From Argopecten irradians (lineage: Eukaryota > Mollusca > Bivalvia > Pectinida > Pectinidae): a stretch of DNA of 64,000 bases. The translations under genes and the position numbers were made by a program. Positions 1,586 to 29,700 of this stretch are shown piece after piece; position 1 is the first letter of the stretch, and each line of letters begins with the position of its first letter. A model generated the notes under the pieces. That model made no database searches. It saw nothing but the letters and a program-made list of their open reading frames with translations, and was not told the DNA's origin. The stretch is from the NCBI RefSeq assembly GCF_041381155.1, contig NC_091134.1, positions 33,485,540 through 33,549,539 on the forward strand, given 5' to 3'.

Positions 1586-1675
1586 TTATCGACCTATTTT
1601 CAGGTGGATACGGTGAGTTATCAACCCGAGTAAGTGATATATCCCGAGGCCGGACCACCTGAAATAGGTCGATAA
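1586..1675. repeat. palindromic repeat, 21-22 bp arms
   Basis: Left arm 1586-1607 and right arm 1655-1675 are reverse complements (TTATCGACCTATTTCAGGTGG, apart from one extra T in the left arm). Between them lies the motif GTGGATACGGTGA, which recurs in diverged form at 2436-2460. It looks like a small foldback element in the spacer between the divergent IAP genes. Confidence 0.6.
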
Positions 1676-1941
1676 CTGTTTTATTATATGAAACTTACAT
1701 ATATTTACCCGGCTCTTCAAAAAGAATTAACTACAAAAACAGGATGGTATATGCAAACTTTCTGTTTACAAAAGTAGTTACATGTAGTATTAATGGTAAA
1801 TATCCAAATGCTCCTTGCTAACGGTGTAGACTCACTGACTGGTAGAACCGGAATATTGTATCAACTGCAGCCCGTCTGGCATTCTTGAACGTTTTCCATA
1901 AATTGAAGTTTGCAGTTCACTTCTGTTGATAACCGTTGATC

Positions 1942-2316
1942 GCAGTAAACTTGCTGCCTTCCGCCATAATAATGACGTCACAATAGACTGTCCCGACGTC
2001 ATTGAATGAGGGAAACTCCCGTTACGCTATATTTGGGTACGACTCGACGTTAAAAGTGATTATGACGTCACATCTCAAGGGAGTTTTCCTCGATCTATTT
2101 TTGACACAGGTTACTGGACTCGCGAGAGGTATCTGGACTGAGTCCAGTAACCTCGCGTGCTTTTCGCCGCCGATTTCGGGGTTGATATCGCAGTTGATGA
2201 ATACTTCTGAGAAGCGTATCGGCCAATCAAAAGACAGCAAAAGCAGCAGTCATACAATAAAATCTATTATGACGTCATTATTTAGCAAGATGTGACGGAA
2301 GGCAGCCGTTTACTGC
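1942..2316. mobile_element. MITE-like terminal-inverted-repeat element (375 bp)
   Basis: The ends are inverted copies: GCAGTAAAC...GCTGCCTTCCG...AATAATGACGTCA on the left matches the reverse complement of 2270-2316 on the right, with a few gaps. No coding capacity. It contains two further TGACGTCA sites near its ends and an inner hairpin at 2109-2155 (GGTTACTGGACTC against GAGTCCAGTAACC). A clean target duplication could not be assigned. Confidence 0.5.
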
Positions 2317-2428
2317 AACCAATGTGATCCTGACAATATTTGTGTGTGCATTTTTGTGTGATTTTTTAAAATATTAAGTACAATATAGTTATATGGTATT
2401 TTTCTCTATTCGATTAATATTATCAGCT

Positions 2429-2753
2429 TGTTTACAGGTGGATACTGTGATGTATCAACCTAGGTGAACAGCGAACAACTAAATAACTACACCACATGAT
2501 CACCCATTATCAGTAACCGATAAACGTCAATTTTACAAAAAAAATAATAATAATAATACTCACTCTTCAGCCACGGGTGATATCGCTTCCTCGAGTTGTT
2601 AAATCACCATATCCACTTAAAAGCAGGTGGCATTTGTATTCTATTGTTCACATTACTTGGCTATTCTACACCAACTTTTTACAAAAATCCCTTTAAAGTT
2701 TATCGGTTACAGATAATGGATAATCAGGTAGTGTAGTTGTTTATCTATTCACC
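2429..2753. repeat. interleaved inverted repeats
   Basis: Segment 2429-2463 is inverted at 2589-2627 (GTGGATA-[CT]-GTGAT-TATCAAC core). Segment 2463-2525 (ending in CAGTAACCGATAAAC) is inverted at 2698-2753 (GTTTATCGGTTACAG onward). The two pairs overlap in A-B-A'-B' order, so they are not simply nested. They probably result from one foldback element inserting into another. Confidence 0.5.
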
Positions 2754-3938
2754 TTTCAATTCGCTGGCCGGTTTTTGATCGCCGGCATCGACATTAAAAT
2801 CCATGGTCATGCACCTGCCCGTTCATGTTTTTTCTCCGAATACTATTTCCGTCCACTTTACGACCCCATCCGTGTTATCAAAAGTTGCATAATCTGTATA
2901 TCACGATCAACTTAAAACAAAGAATACATGAACTTTAAACACTCTAAGCATAAAAAGCAATAAAAAAGGGTCTCAGAAAGATTTGTAAATAAATGATATG
3001 GATGCACCATAGAACGGGCGCTTTTTTCTTCTTAAAAACAACCCTTTTGTAAGTGTGATGAATTGTTACAACCCCATTCCAATATTTTATAGTATGACAA
3101 AAATCACCAAAAATTAGCATAATCATACACTACAACATAGGATCTTTAGATTGCATTTTAAATACAATTAGTATGTCCATTAAAAAGGTGTATGATATAA
3201 GTAATATTGTGGAAATAACTTACCGATAAGATGTAAGATGATTTAAATTCACATTAACAGTATGCGCTCTGCCTGTCCGTAACAATTTTGCGTAAAAATA
3301 TATTAAAGAATATGAAGTCATCTTAAAAATTAACACAAATCATTGCAAACTTGTATTGTCACCTGCAAGGCGTCGTTTGGACGTTATTACATATTTAGCT
3401 TTAGATTCAGCATTTATATAGAGTGCAACCCTACTACTGGCGATATGCCAAGATTTATACAAGGTACACATGTACAGGTTAGATATGTTACGGTCTCATT
3501 ACAAGGAAGTTATTTTCATAACTGAAAATGAACATAGTCAGAACAAATACACATGATATTAGGACTTTGGCACACTTTACTAGATCGGAGCTGATACGCG
3601 ATTTAACGGGTGAGGAACAGGAACATACGTAATGTTATAATCACAATGTAGTATTAGTCAGCGTAGTAAATATTGATTATGGCGGTCACACACATTCTAT
3701 ATTGGATTCTCTTTGATTTATTAACTACACTTTAACACTGGTGTTAAGCCATGCTACTTATTTAAGATATTTGAATCGTGTAAACAATTTAAATGTATAT
3801 ACATATTAGAAAAGAGATATTTTTTTCTTCAGTTTTTCCATTTAAATAAACGTTCAGTTCAGAAAACTGATGAATAATTCAAAAAGTAGGTAACAGTGAC
3901 CAAGTTAAGCATTTGTTCTATTTTAGCATTAAAAACTT
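2754..3938. other. intergenic spacer between divergent IAP genes
   Basis: AT-rich DNA with no open frame that resembles a protein and no clear repeat. It lies upstream of both IAP genes and may hold shared regulatory DNA, but nothing specific is visible. Confidence 0.4.
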
Positions 3939-4699
3939 ACGATGGCCGACAAGAGCCTGGCAAAAAGATATGAAAATACTGTAACGCATAGATTTTTTCA
4001 GATCTTTTTGTACCACGATATGGTACAAAAACATGTGAAACATGTGTGCGTTACAAAAAGATTATGAACATTTCTGGAAAATTAAGATTACATTCACATG
4101 ATTATGATAAGATGTGAAAGCTAATTCTTTTGTACTGTTTTTGTACCTCTGATGGTATAAAAAGATGTGAAAGCATGGTACATAAACATGTGAAACGACT
4201 TGCCTTTTGCATCTTTCTGTACCATCAGTGGTACAAAATCATGTGAAAGGGTCTGAGCTTTCACATTTTTTTTTGTCCCATCAGTGGTACAAAAATACGT
4301 GAAACCATGGTACACAAAGATGTGAAAGGAGCATTGGAATGTTGTTGTCAAACACCATGACCAGAGCTGACCCAAATAGCAGCGGTTTGGTTAAGGCGTC
4401 ACAACAAACGTAAAATGTCGTTAACACTTTTGAGGAAAAACAGAAACGAAACTTTTGTGCTATATTTCGGGTGTAACTTGGGGCTTAGAACTGTTAAATA
4501 AACCGGTATAAAAATGAAAAATAGTTACCAACATTATCGTATTTGACTAATTGTTTTTTGGAGGTTTTTCCATGAAGATGTATACAATCTAATATGTTTT
4601 TGTACCATTTATGGTACAAAACATGTGAAAAAACTGTACCATGATAAAAAGCGTTACAGTTTTTTCATATAGTTGTGCCAGGCTCTTGTCGGCCATCGT
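3939..4699. mobile_element. non-autonomous TIR element (761 bp) with 6-bp target duplication
   Basis: The terminal inverted repeats are about 50 bp long. They start ACGATGGCCGACAAGAGCC and run to CTGTAACGC, matching the reverse complement of the right end with only a few differences. Identical AAACTT copies flank the element at 3933-3938 and 4700-4705, a clean target-site duplication. The interior has no transposase. It is built from repeated small palindromes of the type TTTGTACC-(AT)CAGTGG-TACAAAA, each followed by ATGTGAAA (for example 4007-4038, 4139-4180, 4216-4250, 4272-4300, 4598-4630). The near-identical ends suggest a fairly young insertion. The superfamily is not assigned. Confidence 0.75.
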
Positions 4700-4705
4700 A
4701 AACTT

Positions 4706-5413
4706 TAATATTGTTACTGAAAACTAGGATTTTTCGTGATTTGATAGTCTGAGATTAATGTTTCGAACTGCATGTTGATCTTGACATGACCTGGTGAAGA
4801 TGATTACATCCTAGGGTCACCTTGGCAAGGTCACGCACATAAATTAGGTGATATTAAATCAATGGTATCACCTGTCCACTCAGCATCCGCTGTTTTCCCA
4901 TGTTTAAAGCAGGTTTTTAAATTATTTAGGATTGTGTTATGAGCTAATTTCAAGCAACACCTTCACGGAAGATAAGATTATTGAATCTGTGTTCATGCAT
5001 ATATACATACCTGTACTAACCTGTTTCCCTTTGTAATGATTTTCACTTGGCAAATTGCCATATAACGAAATCAGTTGAAAATTTCCACTGACGCAATATT
5101 TTTAAATGTAGTGCTATATATATAACCCTATTTGGTATGCTACTCCATAGGACAAAGGTATATCAGATTACCCATATGACCTCCATTGGGCTGGTGTATA
5201 TATGCACATATGCAAAGAAATCTGACCTTAGATTATCGTACCACTCTGTTTTGTCGTGCATTTTATTAGGTTGTAGCATAAGAAGACAGTGGTGTGATAG
5301 CTATGGAAGTACTACTTAATTAACTCAATCACTTTACGTCGGATTGTGTAAGCTGAGTAAGAAAACTCAAAAACAGAAAAATATATATATAATTTTGATT
5401 CTGTAAAACCAAG
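4706..5413. promoter_or_regulatory. upstream region of the plus-strand IAP gene
   Basis: This is the 0.7-kb 5' flank of the ATG at 5414. It contains AT-rich TATA-like stretches at 5113-5127 and 5381-5395 and several AGGTCA-type half sites around 4780-4835. No transcription start can be fixed from sequence alone. Confidence 0.3.
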
Positions 5414-6337
5414 ATGGTAGTATTGACATTGTTGATTCTACTATCGACACGTACATCTGTTTCATGTAAACAATTTAAATTCAATTTTTGTGTGTTGGCA
5501 TCGAGAGCTGTGATATTATTTAACGGAGAAGGATTACAACAACATATGTCATTTTTAACTTTGCTCCATTCAAAGCTTTTTTCATGGAGAGTGGATTTCT
5601 TTAATGTGGAAATTGGCAAATGTCATGGTGGTGAATCAATTAGTTCCGAAAGGAAATATCACTTGAATTTACATAAAACATATGGCAATATACAACTGAG
5701 ACATTTACAGAAAAGAGAAAGGAACACAAAAGCTTTGCCTTACCTCAACAGAGATGTTACAAAATTTGTTCAAAGGGGAAAGTTATATAAAAATATTTGT
5801 TTGAGTAAAGAATCAGATATAATAAGTGGCCAACAAAGCAAACATATGTTATGTGTTTTTTTTACATGGACAAGCACTGAGTACCTCATTAAGGAGAACC
5901 GTATCCCTTTACAGAACAAACCCACTTTGGAATCCCAAAATCATCTGAGTGCAGTAACTATGCGAGAAACACAAATCCAAACAACGATAAAACGTGTATA
6001 TTCTGAAAACGACGTACATGAGGATGTTTTACCTGTGTGTGATATTCGTAAACAGTTTTTGAAACATGTCTTGTTGCCAGTTCAGACAGACAAAATCTTA
6101 ATAAAATGTCAAAGAGGGATATTGGCTAAACACATCACTGAAGCTGATAAGAAAGAAGCACTGTATCTACAATCAGAAAAGAAAGACAGTTATTCGTATA
6201 ATCATTCTGTGTTCCAAACCATTCAGGTCTATCCTGTGCAGCAATATTCGTTGGAACAAGCGTTCAAATTCATTGCTAAAGAGGGAAGTACAGCGACTAC
6301 AGATCCGGAAGTTTGCTTTTCAAGTTACCTGATGAGA
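5414..6337 (+). other. N-terminal extension of the plus-strand IAP
   Basis: About 300 residues precede BIR1 in an uninterrupted frame, which is long for such AT-rich DNA and so probably coding. The first 18 residues (MVVLTLLILLSTRTSVSC) are a hydrophobic stretch ending in small residues, like a secretory signal peptide, which would be odd for a cytosolic IAP. I recognise no domain in the rest. The start has a good context (AAGATGG). Translation could instead start at a downstream ATG, which would remove the signal-like segment. Confidence 0.4.
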
Positions 6338-9300
6338 CTGTCATCTTACAGGCGATTCCCAAACAAACAGGCTCCAAGTGCAATTAAACTTGGCACAGCT
6401 GGATTTTATGCCACTGGGAATAACGACGAAACTGCTTGCTTTCATTGTGGGTGCAGATACTCTCATTGGTGTGAAAATGAAGATCCTATTCGCATTCATA
6501 AAGAAATTTCCCCGGAATGCGAATTCATTCAGGAGCTGTCTACAAGTGAAAACTGCACAGAAGGTAGGCATCCTATTACCAATGGAAGGGCGTGCCCAGA
6601 GGATCCTGATACAACACCTAGTCCGCAGATTCTGGGAAATTCCATAATAGTATTCGGAAATGAACAGCAACGTTATAGAGGTTGCGATCCAGAGTTTATT
6701 GAAGAGAGAACGCATCAGGTCGACATTTCTCTTGCAAACTCCACAGAAGACGAACATGAGAATCACATGTTCTACGACCAAAACGGATATCGGCATTCAT
6801 TAATACAAGAAACCGAGCGAAGAAACATCACATCACTTTCAAATAATTTTGAAACCATTTCTATAGACAACATTCCTTCAAATGTGCCAGTTTCTGCTCC
6901 CGAAAAGTCAAGTTCTGCAGCACTTTCTTTCCGAAAGCCTGGATACGAGTTTACGATCGTTAATGGCAACTGCGAACTTGGAGGTGAAAGAAAATGACAG
7001 CGTTCCAAACGGCGCAATACATCACACGAGCTGAAAAAACAATTAACCGAGAACAGAGAAGAATTTGCTCGCCCAAGTTTTCCAAAATATACATCTTTGT
7101 TAGTGAGAATGTCGTCTTTTGCAAAATGGCCGACTCATCGTACGCAAACTCCAAAGCAAATGGCTGACGCTGGATTCTTCTATAAAGGTTAAAATTATTT
7201 TTGGACTATTTAATGTTAGTATATTTTCTTCCCTTTTTGTTGGCTAAAATAATGATTTTATTTTTTTTTATTTTAAGGCTATAGCGATGTCGTGGTGTGC
7301 TTTTGGTGTGGGGTGACCATTTGCGACTGGGAAGATGAGGATGAACCATGCATGGAGCATATTAAATGGCAACCGAATTGTCCCTTTACGCTACAGACCA
7401 AGGGAAAAGACTTTGTCAATCTCGTACTGGAAGAGCCAAAATGGCCTATACAAGTCGGTATATCTAAATGTTATTTATTTATGAACGTACAAATCTACCT
7501 AAGGTAGCCATTTATTGAAATAAATGTGGTAAATGCGTAACTAAAATGTACATATATTGCAGACGGTCATAGTTACGCTAGTGACGGCATTGCTATATTA
7601 GACTTGTATTTATATCCATTTATTCATAACATTTAGCTAAACAGGTAAGTAGTCAATGGAGGTACCTACCCGGAAGTGTATTTCATTCTTAAAAGCGAAA
7701 TGGCATACCCCACCCAAAACGATCATGGACTAACGATGTGATGAATCCGTGCAGTCACAATAATATCTATATATATATACTGTATACAGGAAAAAACAGT
7801 CAATAACATTTTTTACCGTAGCATTTCTTGCGCGAAAAGCCCTAATATAAGTTTTATACATGCAGCTTAATTATGTACGTGTAAATCCTTTCGTTTTATA
7901 ATACATTAATTTGGCGTATTGTTGAGCTATTTCAATTAGATTTGTTTTACCAGGTAATATATAAAGATTCACTGGATATGACCATATTATGGTCACAAAC
8001 TCAGACCACATCACTTAGATAATTAACGTATTTTTCAATTTAATCTAGGTTGACGTATATTGCAATAAATAAAAAATAAAATCATTTCATTAATTATTAT
8101 CTGGCTATTGTGACTATTATCATAACTATCATCACGTACCCGGAATAATCAAATATGAGCACATGCTATTAATAGCTCTGGTAAATGAATATCAGATATA
8201 ATTTTGTTTCAAATTTCCTTATATGAGTAAAATATTAACCTGAAAAGAACATAAAACAATAAAACGTACTTTTGTTATTTCAGGAGAACAAAAGCATCGA
8301 AGATTATAACGTTGCCGGTAAGTCTATGTCTTTAAACCCTGTTATTCTATATAACATTATGCACAACTTTGTATTCACTTATGTCTATCGTTTGTTACGT
8401 TGACAGCCATATGCAGCACATTTTTATTATCCCTATGTTTACTGGGTATAATATCACATGACTTTGTCTTGTTGTTATCTGTGTGTATTTGATCATGTGC
8501 CCGATATCAATATGCTTTTTGTTTACATATGTCACGTAAGGGGTCAAGTGTAGCTTTTATGATCTAGCCACACATTATACACTTAATCTCATACTTGTGT
8601 ATAATGTTTGTATATAACAATGATTCTAAAAATATTCAAGTGCGAGGTACGGTTTGATGCTGTTTAACCTCTTTTGTAACATGAGCCTCTCGAGTTTTAT
8701 GTTTTTATAATATAGTCAAGCGAAAGTGAGGTTTGAGGTTATATATCCTGCATTTGGCACTCGATGACAATAGATGTTTAAAACATCATTATACGATCGG
8801 AGTCAGATCTTTGTCCGGACGTCCTTCATCCTCCGTTAATCTCTATAAAACAAACAGTTTTTGATAAAAAGTGTATTTTCGTTTAATAGTAACAGCATGG
8901 GCCCATGTTCTGCTATCTATTGCTACTAAAATATTGGCATGCGTTTTCAGTGGTAGCTGCAAAGATGTCTATCGAAATAGAAGGCTTTGCGGTGACAGTC
9001 GACATCAGGGAATGACAAAATCATTGACCCTCAAGGAAATATGTTTTTTATTTGTTTTTATGAATTTCTGGGAATGATGATACGAGCGCTTGATTATCTC
9101 GTTTTGCTCAAAAATGGCGTCCGCTTCGGTTTTTCCCGTATCCATGGTAACAGTATCCTGTTGGAATGTCAATGCGTAAGTAAATTACTATATCAAAACC
9201 TATGAGCACATTTCACTGAAAAACTTGACTTTGAACATTTTTGTTTTTGTTTCAGAACAAACTCTGCCAAGAAATTCAAATGAAGCAATAACGTACCCTA

Positions 9301-16154: not shown

Positions 16155-16155
<1 letters not shown>
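11160..16155. other. intergenic DNA, gene-poor
   Basis: Nearly 5 kb of AT-rich DNA downstream of the RING exon. Open frames here are short, have no recognisable motifs, and I do not call them genes. One exception worth listing (12157-12360) is given separately. Small A-rich runs occur at 14125-14150. Confidence 0.5.
12157..12360 (-). pseudogene. possible isolated coding fragment of unknown family
   Basis: A 67-codon minus-strand frame reads ...MLRQLNIGKYQII...MLHLEGFGIPINPNIS.... Its composition is more protein-like than its neighbours (few low-complexity runs, mixed charge), but I recognise no family and see no flanking exons. It may be a relic of a mobile element or a chance open frame. 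Confidence 0.15.

Positions 16156-16186
<31 letters not shown>
16156..16186. repeat. (AT)n microsatellite
   Basis: An alternating AT run directly abuts the 3' end of the left Penelope-like copy. A similar run lies 40-60 bp beyond the right copy (18711-18736), so the pair may have inserted into or beside an AT microsatellite. Confidence 0.85.
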
Positions 16187-16187
<1 letters not shown>

Positions 16188-16196
16188 AAATAAAAA

Positions 16197-16259
16197 CAAT
16201 AACGACTGACTAGTGAGCGCTTTCGCCCCATTCAAGGGAGCTCTTCAGACTGTTTATTG
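16197..16259 (-). ncRNA. hammerhead ribozyme, left Penelope-like copy
   Basis: Read on the minus strand. Stem I is an outer CAATAA/TTATTG helix plus an inner AGT/ACT helix. The core is CTGAAGA, stem II GCTCC/GGGGC with a TTGAAT loop, then GAA, then a loopless palindromic stem III AGC/GCT and C17. All invariant hammerhead core positions are present. The sequence is identical to the right copy over this stretch. Penelope-like elements are known to carry such motifs. Confidence 0.8.
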
Positions 16260-16395
16260 AAGACGTATTATGACGTCATAATTCATGACGTCATTTGCTA
16301 AGAGACATGATATAAACAATCAATGAGGAAGAATACAAAGAATACAATGTCGGATTAAATAAAAGACAAAACATGAAAATATAAAAATATTTCCT

Positions 16396-16468
16396 GTGCT
16401 CGGTAGGATTCGAACACGCTAAGTGCTGAGCAAAAGACAGGGCCATTAACCGATTGAGCTACATCTAC
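16396..16468 (-). repeat. tRNA-like block in the left Penelope-like copy
   Basis: The minus strand has a pol III A-box-like TAGCTCAATCGGTTAATGG and a B-box-like TGTTCGAATCC about 35 bp apart. The acceptor arms (GTAGATG and CGAGCAC) do not pair and the T stem is poor, so this is a tRNA-derived block, not a functional tRNA gene. Confidence 0.6.
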
Positions 16469-17523
16469 ATATAAAATACTGCTTCCGAAAAAAAGTACCA
16501 TCAAGTCAACATTCAACTATAATGTTACATACAACAAAAATGGGTCAGTTTGAATGAGCACTGTTCAAATTAGGTTTTAGAAGTCTGATTAATTCAGATT
16601 CCTTAGCCTCGCGTTTGACAACATCCGCATCATTCATCTGATATAAAGGGAAAATTTTGAACTCTCCTTTAGAACATTCATGTATATGTTTACTTACTGG
16701 TAAAAATCGTAAATGATCAGTCCGTATTTGCTGTCTGTGCACTGTCATTCTTGTACGTAATTCAGTACCCGTTTGACCGACATAAAATTCGGGAGCATTT
16801 ATCACAAATCATTACATATATTACGTTACTAGATCTACAATTCATATTCTTTTTTACTTTGAAAGTAAAACCAGTTTTTAATGTTATCTCACTTCCTTCT
16901 ACAAGTACTTACAAATCCCACAACGAGGAGTGTGACACTTAGAAACACAACCATAAGACGAACTTCCGAATTTAGAACAAGTTAGGATTTGTTTCAGATT
17001 TTTAGGTTGTCGTTTACTATTAACTAAAACAGTACTATTTAGAACTTTTCTCATACGATCACTACCTCTTTTCATGTCTTCGTATTTACTACGAATTACA
17101 GGAAACATATTAAAATTACGAGGATTATATGTAGATATAAATGGAATTACGTTATTGTTTTTGTCAATATCTCGAGTACGGGATGTAAAAGGTCCCTTTT
17201 CTACAGCCAAACGTATACCGTTCTCAATTAATTGAGGTGGATATCCTTGTGATTTCAGATGAGTAGAAAGTTCTTCAAATCTTTTCTTAATGTTACTTTC
17301 GTCACTTACTAAAGTGACGATTCGTGATGCCAAATTATACGGAATGTTAACTTTAATATGTTTGGAATGACTGGAATAAAAGTTAAGATAATTATGAGAA
17401 TCGGTAGGTTTAGCGTATATATCAGTAGAAATAATGTTGTCTTTCAAAATAACAAGAACATCTAAAAAAGGCAATGAATATTCATTAGATTCCATAGTAT
17501 AACAAATGGAAGGATGTAAGGAA

Positions 17524-17662
17524 ACGGTATACGTTTGGCTGTAGAATCACAAGGATATCCACCTCAATTAATTGAGAACGGTATACGTTTGGCTGTAGAA
17601 TCACAAGGATATCCACCTCAATTAATTGAGAACGGTATACGTTTGGCTGTAGAAAAGGGACC
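17524..17662 (+). repeat. 54-bp in-frame tandem repeat at the inverted junction
   Basis: The unit starting ACGGTATACGTTTGGCTGTA begins at 17524, 17578 and 17632 (the third copy partial, diverging after TGTAGAA). The unit is a multiple of three, so the frame stays open. It sits at the centre of the inverted pair. Confidence 0.85.
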
Positions 17663-18387
17663 TTTTACATCCCGTACTCGAGATATTGACAAAAACAATA
17701 ACGTAATTCCATTTATATCTACATATAATCCTCGTAATTTTAATATGTTTCCTGTAATTCGTAGTAAATACGAAGACATGAAAAGAGGTAGTGATCGTAT
17801 GAGAAAAGTTCTAAATAGTACTGTTTTAATTAATAGTAAACGACAACCTAAAAATCTGAAACAAATCCTAACTTGTTCTAAATTCGGAAGTTCATCTTAT
17901 GGTTGTGTTTCTAAGTGTCACACTCCTCGTTGTGGGATTTGTAAGTACATTGTAGAAGGAAGTGAGATAACATTAAAAACTGGTTTTACTTTCAAAGTAA
18001 AAAAGAATATGAATTGTAGATCTAGTAACGTAATATATGTAATGATTTGTGATAAATGCTCCGAATTTTATGTCGGTCAAACGGGTACTGAATTACGTAC
18101 AAGAATGACAGTGCACAGACAGCAAATACGGACTGATCATTTACGATTTTTACCAGTAAGTAAACATATACATGAATGTTCTAAAGAAGAGTTCAAAATT
18201 TTCCCTTTATATCAGATGAATGATGATGCGGATGTTGTCAAACGCGAGGCTAAGGAATCTGAATTAATCAGACTTCTAAAACCTAATTTGAACAGTGCTC
18301 ATTCAAACTGACCCATTTTTGTTGTATGTAACATTATAGTTGAATGTTGACTTGATGGTACTTTTTTTCGGAAGCAGTATTTTATAT

Positions 18388-18460
18388 GTAGATGTAGCTC
18401 AATCGGTTAATGGCCCTGTCTTTTGCTCAGCACTTAGCGTGTTCGAATCCTACCGAGCAC
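18388..18460 (+). repeat. tRNA-like block in the right Penelope-like copy
   Basis: Identical in layout to 16396-16468: A-box TAGCTCAATCGGTTAATGG, B-box TGTTCGAATCC, 77 bp after the stop codon of the GIY-YIG frame. The cloverleaf is poor, so it is unlikely to be a working tRNA. Confidence 0.6.
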
Positions 18461-18596
18461 AGGAAATATTTTTATATTTTCATGTTTTGTCTTTTATTTA
18501 ATCCGACATTGTATTCTTTGTATTCTTCCTCATTGATTGTTTATATCATGTCTCTTAGCAAATGACGTCATGAATTATGACGTCATAATACGTCTT

Positions 18597-18659
18597 CAAT
18601 AAACAGTCTGAAGAGCTCCCTTGAATGGGGCGAAAGCGCTCACTAGTCAGTCGTTATTG
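18597..18659 (+). ncRNA. hammerhead ribozyme, right Penelope-like copy
   Basis: The order is CAATAA (18597), AC, AGT, CTGAAGA (18608-18614), stem II GCTCC with a TTGAAT loop and GGGGC, GAA, AGC/GCT, C at 18641 (predicted cleavage after it), then ACT, an internal loop, and TTATTG (18654-18659). Core positions C3-U4-G5-A6-N7-G8-A9, G12-A13-A14, A15.1-U16.1 and H17 are all satisfied. Stem III is a 6-nt palindrome without a loop, which in known retroelement hammerheads works best as a dimer. Confidence 0.82.
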
Positions 18660-18706
18660 TTTTTATTTCTTATAGATTTCGTCCGTAAGGATTTTTCTTT
18701 AAATTT

Positions 18707-18710
<4 letters not shown>

Positions 18711-18736
<26 letters not shown>
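18711..18736. repeat. (AT)n microsatellite
   Basis: A short alternating AT run just beyond the right Penelope-like copy, mirroring the run at 16156-16186. Confidence 0.8.
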
Positions 18737-18741
<5 letters not shown>

Positions 18742-19264: not shown

Positions 19265-19602
19265 TTTTTCTTTCATACCTACACGTGTAATACTGGCTGG
19301 TCTAGGGCAATACACTCATGTCGCCTGAGGCTGTATTGCATGGATACCCATGCAATAAAGCCTCGTGACGTCACGGCGTCAACAAAATCTCTATTTCCTC
19401 GGTAAAATTTTAACATTTTTTTCACAAAATTGACTGGTTTTACTATAAAAGATGCAAGCAACGGAATTTGTGTTGAAAATATCACGTAATTTTTCATGTA
19501 CGGAAATTGACTTCCAGTCGTGGGTTTCTTCGAATTTATTTCAAAATGGCGGGATATTATAGTTGTAAAATTGCAGTAAAACGTCGTGGTATGAAAGAAA
19601 AA
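19265..19602. mobile_element. MITE-like element with 15-bp terminal inverted repeats
   Basis: TTTTTCTTTCATACC at 19265-19279 is inverted as GGTATGAAAGAAAAA at 19588-19602. The interior has no open frame of interest but holds an inner palindrome (TTGCATGG-ATA-CCATGCAA, 19337-19355) and a GTGACGTCAC site. It abuts the larger palindrome at 19604-19752. Confidence 0.45.
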
Positions 19603-19603
19603 T

Positions 19604-19752
19604 ACTCTTTCATAAGTGGATATGAAGGATAGGGATATTCTACCCTCGGGATCACAAAATGTTGCAAAACCCTCGGCAAGCCTCGGGTTTTACTACATTT
19701 TGTGACCCTCGGGTAGAATATCCCTATCCTTCATATCCACATATGAAAGAGT
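19604..19752. repeat. 149-bp near-perfect palindrome
   Basis: Left arm ACTCTTTCAT...GTGGATATGAAGGATAGGG... and right arm ...CCCTATCCTTCATATCCAC...ATGAAAGAGT are reverse complements over about 70 bp with a handful of mismatches and a very short centre near 19678. Such an arm length predicts cruciform or hairpin extrusion and suggests a foldback element. Confidence 0.75.
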
Positions 19753-19889
19753 CTTATAATATTGGACCAGTACATTTATTGCGTTGTTCTTGTATATGTG
19801 TAAATTAAAACTTCTTACAGTTATTTTAAAAACGTATACTGATAACACATTTAGTCTAGTACAGAAATTTCAAATCTCGTCGTGCTGAT

Positions 19890-26033: not shown

Positions 26034-26737
26034 GGTAAGATTTGTGTGTATAATGGCTCTGACTGTTATACTGTCGCTTTAAAATTTCGTATGCGATTTC
26101 TGACTTTTTCATCATAGATTTTATTCCGTAGTAAAACGCCAGGTAGATATACCTATTTTATCAGTTTATGAACCCGATAAATGATACTTAAATGTACTGT
26201 CATTGTTGTATGATGTAGTTTCACATTGTCTCTATTTAAAGACAGTATCATATTATCAAGTGCATAGCAATGGATTAAGGTCCTATATTATAAAGTTGGT
26301 TATGTTTTCTTAACTAAGATAAAAACGGTCGATTCATTATGATAAATATCACAATGTAATAAGAAAGTAATGTAACTCTGCGACCATAATCTATGAAGTT
26401 TTCTCCAATTTATTCTGTCTCTAAGATTAATGATTTAACTTATGTTAGAGTTGCTTATTTTTTGTGTTTCAAATAAAGATATTTTTAATTTGAAAGTAAT
26501 GTGCCGCTATTCCTGAGAACAACAACACCAAGAAAATATAGCCTCTCTATGCCTGAAGAAATACATTTGTTTATGACACGTATTTATGACGTTGCAATTA
26601 TTAATGAAAAAACACTAATGATGACATTAGGTTTACCATTTATCTAAGAACTATATGCTTGGTTATAATATATTTTTATTTTTCTGCAATTTTTATTGTT
26701 CAGGCCGTCTTTGATAACATTTTATTATGATTGTAGC

Positions 26738-29700
26738 ATGTCCTCGTCTCAGTCCCCGGAAGATGTCGTCTATTTTTGTCGGTTGATGCAGCTAATTCAA
26801 CAATATGGAACCATCGCATTAAAATCTATACTTATAAAACTGCTGTGGAAGGAGTATGTCAGCTCTAAGAGGCCAACATTTACCTATTTCACTGATGGGA
26901 GTATTGTTATGGCAGGCACGAATTATCTCTTGCCAAATCCTCTTCCTGATCTTAACAAATGCGTCCAAGGTTCCAAAGATGGCGACCCTGTGCAAAACAT
27001 TCTTGAAGTTTCATTTCTTACCCAGATCGTCAATAAAAACGATAAGAAACTAAGGGAGCTAAATAGAAAAAAGATAATCAATCAAGCACAATGGAAAATC
27101 CTGTTTTCAAACAGAAGTGTGAATATACACGACCTTGATGTATCTCTTCTCAGTGTATTGATATTTAATGTTTTTAAATGTAAACCATCTTGTAGCATGG
27201 ATTCAATGCCGCTGAACTGGGAAGTTACAGAGGCAGATGATGTGTTGAGGGTTAGATTACATCGAAACAAGTTAGCTCACCTAACGTCTTTGGTGATTTC
27301 GCGTAGAGATTTTAACACTAAGTGGAAAGACATCAGTCTTGCCATCGCGCGATTGACTGGGTCTGCGTATCAAGATGACATTGACCGCTTAAAAGAAACA
27401 AGCTTTGAGCAAGATGCTGTTGATGAAAACAAAAAACTACGACAAGAATGGTCCGAAAATGTGACTAATATTTATCAATCACTTAGTGATATGCAGAAAG
27501 AATTGAAATCAATCAAGAGAAAGCCAAGACATCGACATCGTAAAGGTAATCTCTATTTTTATAGTTGACAATATCAGAAACATGCAATTGAGATTGAAAG
27601 AAAAAACTTTGGTTGAAAATTTCAAGAATGAGACATCTCCATTATAAACATATATTTTGGTACAAAAATAATTGCTACAACAGTTGTTAATGTTTAAGTT
27701 ATATGCGTTTTTAGGTCTAGGTTATCTCTAAGATAACAACGTCAGAATAGTAACTTAATAATACTTATTGAAATATATATACAAAAGCAAATATCGATAT
27801 ATTTTACAGTAATAAGATCCATGATTGTTTGTGATATTAGGTGTAGCTATTCAGTTGAAGAAAAGTGATGACCTTCAAAGGGCATTAAGACTACTAGATA
27901 AGAAAGGGATCGCTACTAAAGTGATATCACTTGATGAGACCGACAGTGAATCCTCGGGATCAAAAGAGGATGTAGCTACCTTGAGTAAGAGTACAGGTTG
28001 TTTGGGTTGGTCCGACGACTTCAATGGTGAAAGTACGATTCGACACTCCAAAAGTACGGACTTTTTGGGGCCAGGAACGTTGAGGTTAAAGAAAAAGGTA
28101 TGGCCGTCAAATTCCATTGTACTTTATGATAAAAAAAATGATGAATATAAAATAATGTCAACCAAATGTCGCACATGTGATGCAATTTTTCCTCATCGAA
28201 TGACTCAAATTGTTATGGTCCTTTTCTTTTTAAAAGAAATAATTCTAGCCGATTGTCCTAGCGTTTGATAGTGTCATCAGGTAAACTTTCACTGCCATGA
28301 ACGTGAAACATTTCGGAAAACAACCAACGACAACTCTGTTGTCCGAGCCCAAAAACGACTATATCTCGGATATCATGTGGCATTATTTTAACCAATAGAA
28401 ATACAAGATTTTTGCCTGTGGCGGGATAAAAAGATAATCTTTGTTAATAATTTTAGTATTATCTATTAGCTTTGAGATATGTACAATACAATGTGTTTTT
28501 AGTGTCAAAAATGTCTTAAAGGCCCACTACATTTCCGAAATAAAAATTTTAAGTTTCTTAAAAGCAATAACAACACAAGCAAATATATATCGATGTCCTA
28601 ATTAGATGTGGTTATAACACCAAATAAATGTGAGATTTTCTGCGCCATCTATTTTAACAGTGAAGATTCATTTCGCCGTTTTGTCGTCTGGCGCAGTGAT
28701 AGGCAACTAACGTTCGGTAATTAGGACGACGGCGGGAAACATCAGATGACCCGCGTTATTAAGCTGATTTCTAATAACAACTATTCTAGCATCGCACTAT
28801 TCGTTTCAGGCGGAACCATTCCATGAAATGTTTTCTGGTCAACAAGAGCGGCGGTGGACCACGTCTGAAATGGAAGACGAATCATCTTACCGAAGTTCTG
28901 GAACTTCTGAAGAACGTTCGCCACAATACCCCTTGTTCGCGTCATCTCCCCATAGCTCTGGGACTTCAGAACAGCCTTCGCCACATGGCCGTTTCTTCTC
29001 TTCATCCCTAGGTTCTGGGACATCCGAACAGCCTTTGCCACATGACCACTCATTCGCTTCCTCCCGTGGTTCCGGAGCTTCAGAACAGCCATCGCCACAT
29101 AACCGTTCTTTCGCTTCATCCCGAAGTTCTGGAGCTTCCGGATTCCCTTCGCCACGTGAATACCATTTAGAACAAGCGTCATCTTCGGAATCTGTATTTG
29201 AGAGCCAGGTGAGATTTATTCAGAAATACCGATTCATATTTTGTGGCTCTGATGCTACCCTAAATATTCGTTAATATTTTTTTTCTATACAGGATTGATT
29301 CATGCAAAGCAATCACGATTACTTAGATAATTTTTGTCATTTGTATACACTTACAGTTCGTTTTTCATTAGTGGATAGTGATACTAGTATATTCCAATTA
29401 GATGACAATTAGATTATATTATTGAGCTACCGCCGTTTACAAATCTGTATTTGCTTTTCAAATAGTCTCCATTATTTAAATAAATAAAAATCATACAAAA
29501 ATTAAATAGAGCACAGATCGCCGCGACCCGAACTGAATGGCGTCGAGCGGAACTCTCTCTAAGATTGAGTCATGACACCTCTTGAAGAAGTTGTCTTCCT
29601 TTCTGCTGACGAACAAAGAAAAATCGGACGGTCCAATTTAACTGGAACTAGTATTCCTATGGATAAGTAATCTCAAATCCAAAATAAAATTATATTTTTG

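Follow-up and report, generated by a model that had tools for sequence, protein, structure and literature searches.

A head-to-head dimer of Penelope-like elements in Argopecten irradians and the pairing of its two 3' ends across the genome

Results

A head-to-head unit in (TA)n DNA

The window analyzed here is a 64,000-nt stretch of the Argopecten irradians genome (C1:33485540-33549539; assembly of 845.8 Mb in 1,508 contigs). Between 16182 and 18712 it contains two 5'-truncated copies of a Penelope-like element (PLE), placed head to head in (TA)n DNA with their 5' ends inside and their 3' ends outside (Table 1). In a single gapped alignment the arms match over 1,077 nt at 99.26% identity, and a repeat search of the window returned the inverted arms as four blocks, 16179-16633/18223-18677 (455 nt, 100%), 16628-16792/18061-18225 (99%), 16785-16904/17950-18069 (98%), and 16905-17254/17599-17948 (99%). 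The initial annotation had described a pair of 5'-truncated PLE copies in opposite orientation, lying at 16187..18674 and meeting near 17524. The inverted arms confirm the pair and the junction was found where expected, at about 17519-17523; the true ends fall slightly outside the earlier limits, at 16182 and about 18712, the right arm carrying a tail of ~38 nt.

For comparison of copies, positions were expressed as U coordinates, the position along the tandem unit of contig C370 as it stands. This unit has the order pLTR-ORF-pLTR with a 3,771-nt period (U1 = U3772), so that its pLTR is one formed by tandem arrangement. On this scale the right (+) arm reads U2870-2893, then U2838-2893, then U2838 through to about U3959.

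Table 1. Positions of the features of the head-to-head unit within the window
Feature	Position	Strand	Evidence
(TA)n target DNA, left flank of dimer	16155..16181	.	sequence
A arm, 5'-truncated PLE copy U2569-3916, ends CTTATA without tail, frame broken	16182..17523	-	
Minimal hammerhead motif, A arm; mirror of 18597-18659	16197..16259	-	by eye; 100% inverted arm; without Rfam match
GIY-YIG endonuclease part, A arm	16572..16799	-	Pfam PF01541, 22.0 bits, cut-off 22.6
Head-to-head junction of arms, 0-4 nt ambiguous	17519..17523	.	
54-nt stutter, two extra copies of U2838-2893, B arm 5' end	17523..17630	+	direct repeat D4, two copies 100% alike
B arm, 5'-truncated PLE copy U2838 to B end, tailed	17523..18712	+	
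GIY-YIG endonuclease domain, B arm	18030..18287	+	Pfam PF01541, E 3.5e-7
tRNA A-box/B-box-like letters, unconfirmed as tRNA	18390..18462	+	sequence; without ARAGORN or Rfam tRNA match
Two TGACGTCA (CRE-like) sites, just upstream of putative RNA start	18562..18586	+	direct repeat D5; promoter role inferred
Minimal hammerhead motif CUGAAGA..GAAA..UC, no real helix III	18597..18659	+	sequence
Site A (CTTATA), outer end in A arms	18669..18674	+	
Tail, B arms only; ends ATCATA against (TA)n	18675..18712	+	
(TA)n target DNA, right flank of dimer	18713..18737	.	sequence

Elsewhere in the window lie a separate inverted repeat unrelated to the PLE (19579-19777; arms 72 nt, 81%, spacing 55 nt), two open frames with BIR (inhibitor of apoptosis) domains (5399-6997, +, E 1.2e-16; 683-1024, -, E 5.3e-11) and an open frame with a DZIP3-like HEPN domain (26669-27568, +, E 2e-28).

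Identity of the element

Pfam recognized a GIY-YIG endonuclease in the right arm, and the same domain scored just below the cut-off in the frame-broken left arm. In another copy, at locus L031, GIY-YIG was matched over its cut-off (E 8.8e-6, 26.4 bits against 22.6) in an open frame that neighbors the RVT_1 frame, itself under its cut-off (E 1.2e-5, 25.6 bits against 29.6). With a reverse transcriptase (RT) and a C-terminal GIY-YIG in one element, the family fits the endonuclease-bearing PLEs of the Penelope/Poseidon type; by the likeness of its motifs, the RT would fall in the PLE/telomerase branch. The tail of about 38 nt and the TA target fit two further traits of this group, an optional tail of 30-40 bp and an AT-rich target. 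The window copy retains only a stretch running from what we take to be the RT thumb to the endonuclease. Sequence searches of the PDB gave chance-level matches for the endonuclease piece (best E 0.2) and no match at E 0.01 for the RT piece.

Read from its letters, the ribozyme region of the pLTR has the core of a minimal hammerhead without helix III, with the cut expected between 18641 and 18642 in the window B arm. Helix III is reported to be practically absent from PLE hammerheads (PMC6155905). Rfam reported no hammerhead or tRNA in the window, either at gathering scores or in a lax search with E up to 10, and neither of them in four other copies with E up to 5. The folding energy of the ribozyme region was not unusual (z -1.05 and -0.33), and ARAGORN found no tRNA in the window. 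Of the coding, ribozyme and tRNA-like parts first annotated in the arms, the GIY-YIG domain thus stands on Pfam and the minimal hammerhead motif on its letters, while the tRNA-like part is weak, amounting to A-box and B-box letters. The CRE-like pair of the B arm is mirrored at 16270-16294 in the A arm.

Two outer ends, and their pairing in dimers

When the outer ends of the copies were aligned, they fell into two endings. End A reads ...TTTTTATTTCTTATA followed by (TA)n, its last letters being CTTATA; end B is the A sequence extended by a tail of ~38 nt that ends in ATCATA, again followed by (TA)n. In the window dimer, the left arm has end A and the right arm end B. This combination of one A and one B end (AB) was first seen in seven dimers and then checked on new loci.

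A 32-nt pattern from the pLTR, upstream of both ends, was found at 439 sites with at most 3 mismatches (217 + 222; control 0), and the first 100 of these, all exact, served as the sample. Neighbors less than 8 kb apart made 26 pairs, of which 24 were head-to-head, 1 tail-to-tail and 1 tandem, and all 24 head-to-head pairs were AB (this window, L032, L048, L049/L110, L051-L057, L059-L070 and L091). An additional dimer at a third site in L048 was likewise AB. The 49 leftover "single" sites were also read, 43 of them in stretches of ~620 bases, where a distant partner could be missed, and the other six in the earlier loci L015, L030, L040 and L042-L044. Twenty turned out to be AB dimers whose partner arm is short or mutated, 8 were dimers in which one outer end lies elsewhere or is rearranged (L042, L043, L044, L077, L079, L083, L094 and L108), and 20 were single-arm copies (9 A and 11 B). 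These include L088 as a single-arm B, a tandem array extending past the fetched stretch; L098, a segmental copy of L097, was dropped from the count, and the tandem L058 was counted as one event.

The 100 exact sites thus represent 74 distinct events. Head-to-head dimers account for 53 of them, and in most of these the arms measure about 20-130 nt. Where both outer ends could be assigned, the sampled dimers comprised 45 AB, 0 AA and 0 BB, beside the 8 with one end elsewhere or rearranged. For ends drawn independently at the single-arm frequencies, the probability of 45 AB out of 45 is about 2e-14.

A script assigned the end classes, which were then read by eye. The raw script tally, which includes loci outside the sample, was 25 AB, 20 BA, 3 AA and 15 with an end called otherwise. 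Two of the three AA calls, L063 and L072, were AB on reading; the third, L047, lies outside the 100-site sample and stays AA-like, with ends at U3909 and U3916 and flanks that lack TA. The script also split the arms wrongly in this window, L045 and L048, which all read AB by eye, and L074 was scored AB despite an internal deletion in its tail. The arms of L049/L110 are separated by a 1.4-kb gap (L049 = C3:54283000-54287000, about 199-1606) with inverted termini and TA on both sides; this looks like a nested DNA transposon, and the pair was therefore kept as AB.

Scoring without manual judgement was done on the ends themselves, for which an exact 26-nt A-end pattern (103 sites, 100 listed) and an exact 40-nt B-end pattern (106 sites, 100 listed) were merged and neighbors less than 10 kb apart were classified. 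Among the listed ends there were 34 head-to-head pairs (33 AB, 1 AA, 0 BB), 1 tail-to-tail and 6 tandem, and 16 of the 33 AB pairs were found through the end patterns alone. In L116, the sole AA pair, both flanks are inverted too, which marks it as a host inverted duplication of one A insertion. The early set of seven dimers had A always in the left arm, an idea dropped on the larger list, where A fell in the left arm of 20 pairs and the right arm of 13 (p 0.30): strand choice is free, end pairing is not.

Direct tandem arrays were also encountered, of about 30-nt A-ended pLTR pieces in L063 (C4:19363073-19363668) and of about 72-nt pLTR units in L088 (C2:38551906-38552527), with a tail on the outermost unit only. 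L118 (C7:3349820-3350560) is an AB mini-dimer tandemly triplicated with a period of about 190 bp, the junction being common to all.

Arm lengths and junctions

Inner breakpoints could be read in 47 AB dimers (L035/36, L045, L049/L110, L063 and L094 were omitted). The A arm reached further 5' in 29, the B arm in 14, and the two were equal in 4. In 23 of the 47 the A arm exceeded the B arm by at least 10 nt, including this window (269 nt) and L032 (1,514 nt). Here the A arm holds 5' sequence absent from B and the B arm a tail absent from A, so that, later deletion aside, neither can be a fold-back copy of the other. The tendency of the A arm to be longer (29 against 14, p 0.03) was not relied on, as adding L035/36 and L045, with longer B arms, gives 29 against 16.

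Junctions mostly show 0-8 letters of microhomology (14 in L080), some with short extra stretches. For each arm, 41 of 47 inner breakpoints cluster within U3834-3899. A-arm breakpoints peak at U3846-3851 (17 of 47, 8 exactly at U3847), where 6 of 47 B-arm breakpoints fall; few arms stop at U3884, where the ribozyme would be expected to cut. Certain breakpoint pairs were seen repeatedly, U3847/3849 twice and U3847/3858 three times, so a few of these may be re-mobilized dimers. An apparent short subfamily starting at U3579 was dropped, being a small indel relative to the C370 reference. L031 (C11:39679500-39688800) holds, at 1605-7733, a nearly perfect 6.1-kb palindrome (99.6%) of two PLE copies with identical inner breakpoints, centered on the 8-bp self-complementary CCTGCAGG.

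Source and target of the arms

Comparison of five large dimers over U2838-3916 revealed rare alleles common to both arms in four of them: one in L032, three in L035/36, a 6-nt insertion in C370 and one in this window (also present in the unrelated copy L040). L031 had no such site. These alleles could reflect a single RNA, two RNAs from the same source, or conversion between the arms at a later time. Divergence of the arms, proposed initially as a check, did find them alike, at 99.26%, but is indecisive: each window arm is 99.5-99.6% identical to the young copy at L031, that is, as close as to its partner, and raw identity therefore does not show closest kinship.

Among 42 dimers, 34 left and 32 right flanks contained (TA)3 no more than 20 nt from the element. 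A perfect 13-bp target duplication surrounds the whole of dimer L099 and a 10-bp one surrounds L087. Over the 42 dimers as a set, flanks shared at least 8 nt in 5, which is not above shuffles (8.4%), as TA runs hide duplications.

Discussion

A probable single insertion primed from both target strands

The layout, the AB rule, the differing breakpoints, the TA target and the arm-shared alleles can all be read from the assembled letters. The initial annotation had offered one insertion event among its explanations, and this is now the most likely of them, given the end rule, (TA)n on both sides and rare alleles common to the arms in four large dimers. We think it probable that the unit is one PLE insertion in which both target strands primed reverse transcription in a single event, at A and at B, with the two cDNAs then joined. 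The element protein would cut both strands of the (TA)n target. Since (TA)n reads alike on both strands, either freed 3' end could pair with ..TATA at A or ..CATA at B; on the sense RNA of the element, one of them would start reverse transcription at site A and its counterpart about 38 nt downstream, at site B. Both cDNAs would converge, each stopping at its own point, and would be end-joined through 0-8 (once 14) shared letters to give a head-to-head dimer whose outer ends are an A and a B. A site on one RNA cannot be taken by two primers at once, and such exclusivity would account for the AB rule. Both cDNAs presumably derive from one RNA or one ribonucleoprotein, and the chances that they derive from one RNA molecule seem about even. 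The 54-nt stutter of the B arm may reflect slippage of the reverse transcriptase.

The same scheme would apply to the tiny dimers, which may stop at the 5' end of the RNA itself, about U3847. This position is the A of CAGTCT, which we take to resemble an initiator, and lies some 20-50 nt past the two CRE-like sites; counted downstream from it, site A follows after about 70 nt and site B after about 110 nt, both shortly ahead of the first ATG (U214 of the reference). A transcript that begins at U3847 and is copied from its 5' leader could yield nothing larger than a tiny dimer, and long arms would need read-through or tandem RNAs. Alternatively, the hammerhead structure may block the enzyme. 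More generally, PLE integration might be a single two-ended reaction in which the nicked strands prime the same RNA at adjacent, mutually exclusive sites; the head-to-head dimer would then be the normal full product, single-arm copies would be one-side failures, and the tail would mark the strand that took the outer site. We hold this wider proposal to be as easily wrong as right.

Other origins of the dimers

A variant of the two-strand scheme has two RNAs in an asymmetric protein dimer whose geometry forces one start at A and one at B. The PLE protein of the green anole is predicted to be a dimer (PMC11167929), and the arm-shared alleles indicate one source element, not one molecule. The variant requires a built-in asymmetry, which is dispensable if a single RNA offers two non-overlapping sites, and we regard this variant as possible yet on the unlikely side. 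Under self-priming, which a 2013 paper on rotifer PLEs put forward with an antisense template (PMC3846280), one strand (cDNA or antisense RNA) folds back and is copied, leaving a head-to-head inverted repeat with a palindromic junction. The short shared letters at most junctions agree with it, as do the L031 palindrome and the 4 of 47 dimers with equal breakpoints. A fold-back copy should, however, repeat the outer end of its template and yield AA or BB, against 45 AB to 0 in the sample and 33 AB to 1 in the end lists; it also requires that the A arm never reach beyond the B arm, which it does in 29 of 47, and in 23 of 47 neither arm could derive from the other. A minority with a longer or equal B arm could have arisen by self-priming if copying always stopped at A in the TA run of the target. 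The present counts therefore agree with the rotifer structures and speak against self-priming as a general cause, and for the dimers at large we consider it improbable.

Two separate nearby insertions, or a host inverted duplication of one, have individual precedents here, L116 being a clear host case and L118 a triplication of one dimer. Independent insertions would yield all orientations together with AA and BB pairs, yet 24 of 26 close pairs are head-to-head, and as a general cause such an origin is very improbable. Folding of one copy by the assembler, raised initially, has in its favor that long near-perfect inverted repeats are hard to assemble, yet it is hardly credible: the arms are not identical in sequence, their outer ends and inner breakpoints differ, the flanks are unique, sister dimers occur elsewhere in the genome, and the rule also holds for tiny dimers within the span of a single read. 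Gene conversion, suggested earlier as keeping the arms alike, is unneeded and does not explain the end rule.

Relation to known systems

In twin priming of LINE-1, the second target strand primes on the element RNA and creates an inverted piece, with microhomology at the joins, and the pieces mostly represent separate regions of the RNA. The two-strand scheme differs from this in that both arms start at neighboring sites and overlap almost wholly.

Among the closest systems is PAc, a Poseidon-type PLE of the green anole (PMC11167929), which likewise has GIY-YIG and RT, a pLTR with a hammerhead motif and an AT-rich target. In vitro both target strands are cut and extended, and RT starts at two adjacent sites that bound the optional 30-40 bp tail. 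In PAc the starts fall inside the ORF, some 111-118 bp from its beginning, where the sequence has no homology to the cut DNA; A and B, in contrast, shortly precede the first ATG of the unit, and the last letters of each match the TA target. No start-site difference was seen between the strands of PAc, which is compatible with the AB rule because A falls on either side here; the PAc data pool the two strands and so speak to starts overall, not to pairing within one event. Unprocessed RNA was the main template in vitro, in line with the few arms found here at U3884. A word search of the PAc main text gave no mention of head-to-head dimers.

The Penelope families of the rotifer Adineta vaga are also alike, in that head-to-head is the most frequent inverted form and the tail is on one of the inverted pLTRs (PMC3846280); their copy number is low, which leaves no count of end types. 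The layout, initially thought less familiar, is the commonest inverted arrangement there and recurs genome-wide in A. irradians, which argues against chance. Self-priming, the explanation given for the rotifer elements, is contradicted by the arms of the 23 dimers noted above. PMC11167929 and PMC3846280 both cite a 2006 survey for the tail.

Head-to-head placement of PLEs, tails on one side and a pair of RT start sites have thus been described before, and the window unit is a real inverted dimer of recent age, of a kind that is ordinary among PLEs. A strict rule of one A and one B was not found in the open-licence literature searched, and the regularity seen here is strict enough to constrain PLE integration. 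Of the two views of that process, self-priming on an antisense template in the 2013 rotifer paper and target priming with two start sites, later steps unproven, in the 2024 in vitro work (PMC11167929), both are addressed by a genome with 439 pLTR sites as a natural data set. The rule is directly testable in the existing in vitro system, and, should it hold in other species, one mechanism would explain both the optional tail and the inverted pLTRs. The large dimers, if transcribed through, would give hairpin RNA, a possible source of small RNAs.
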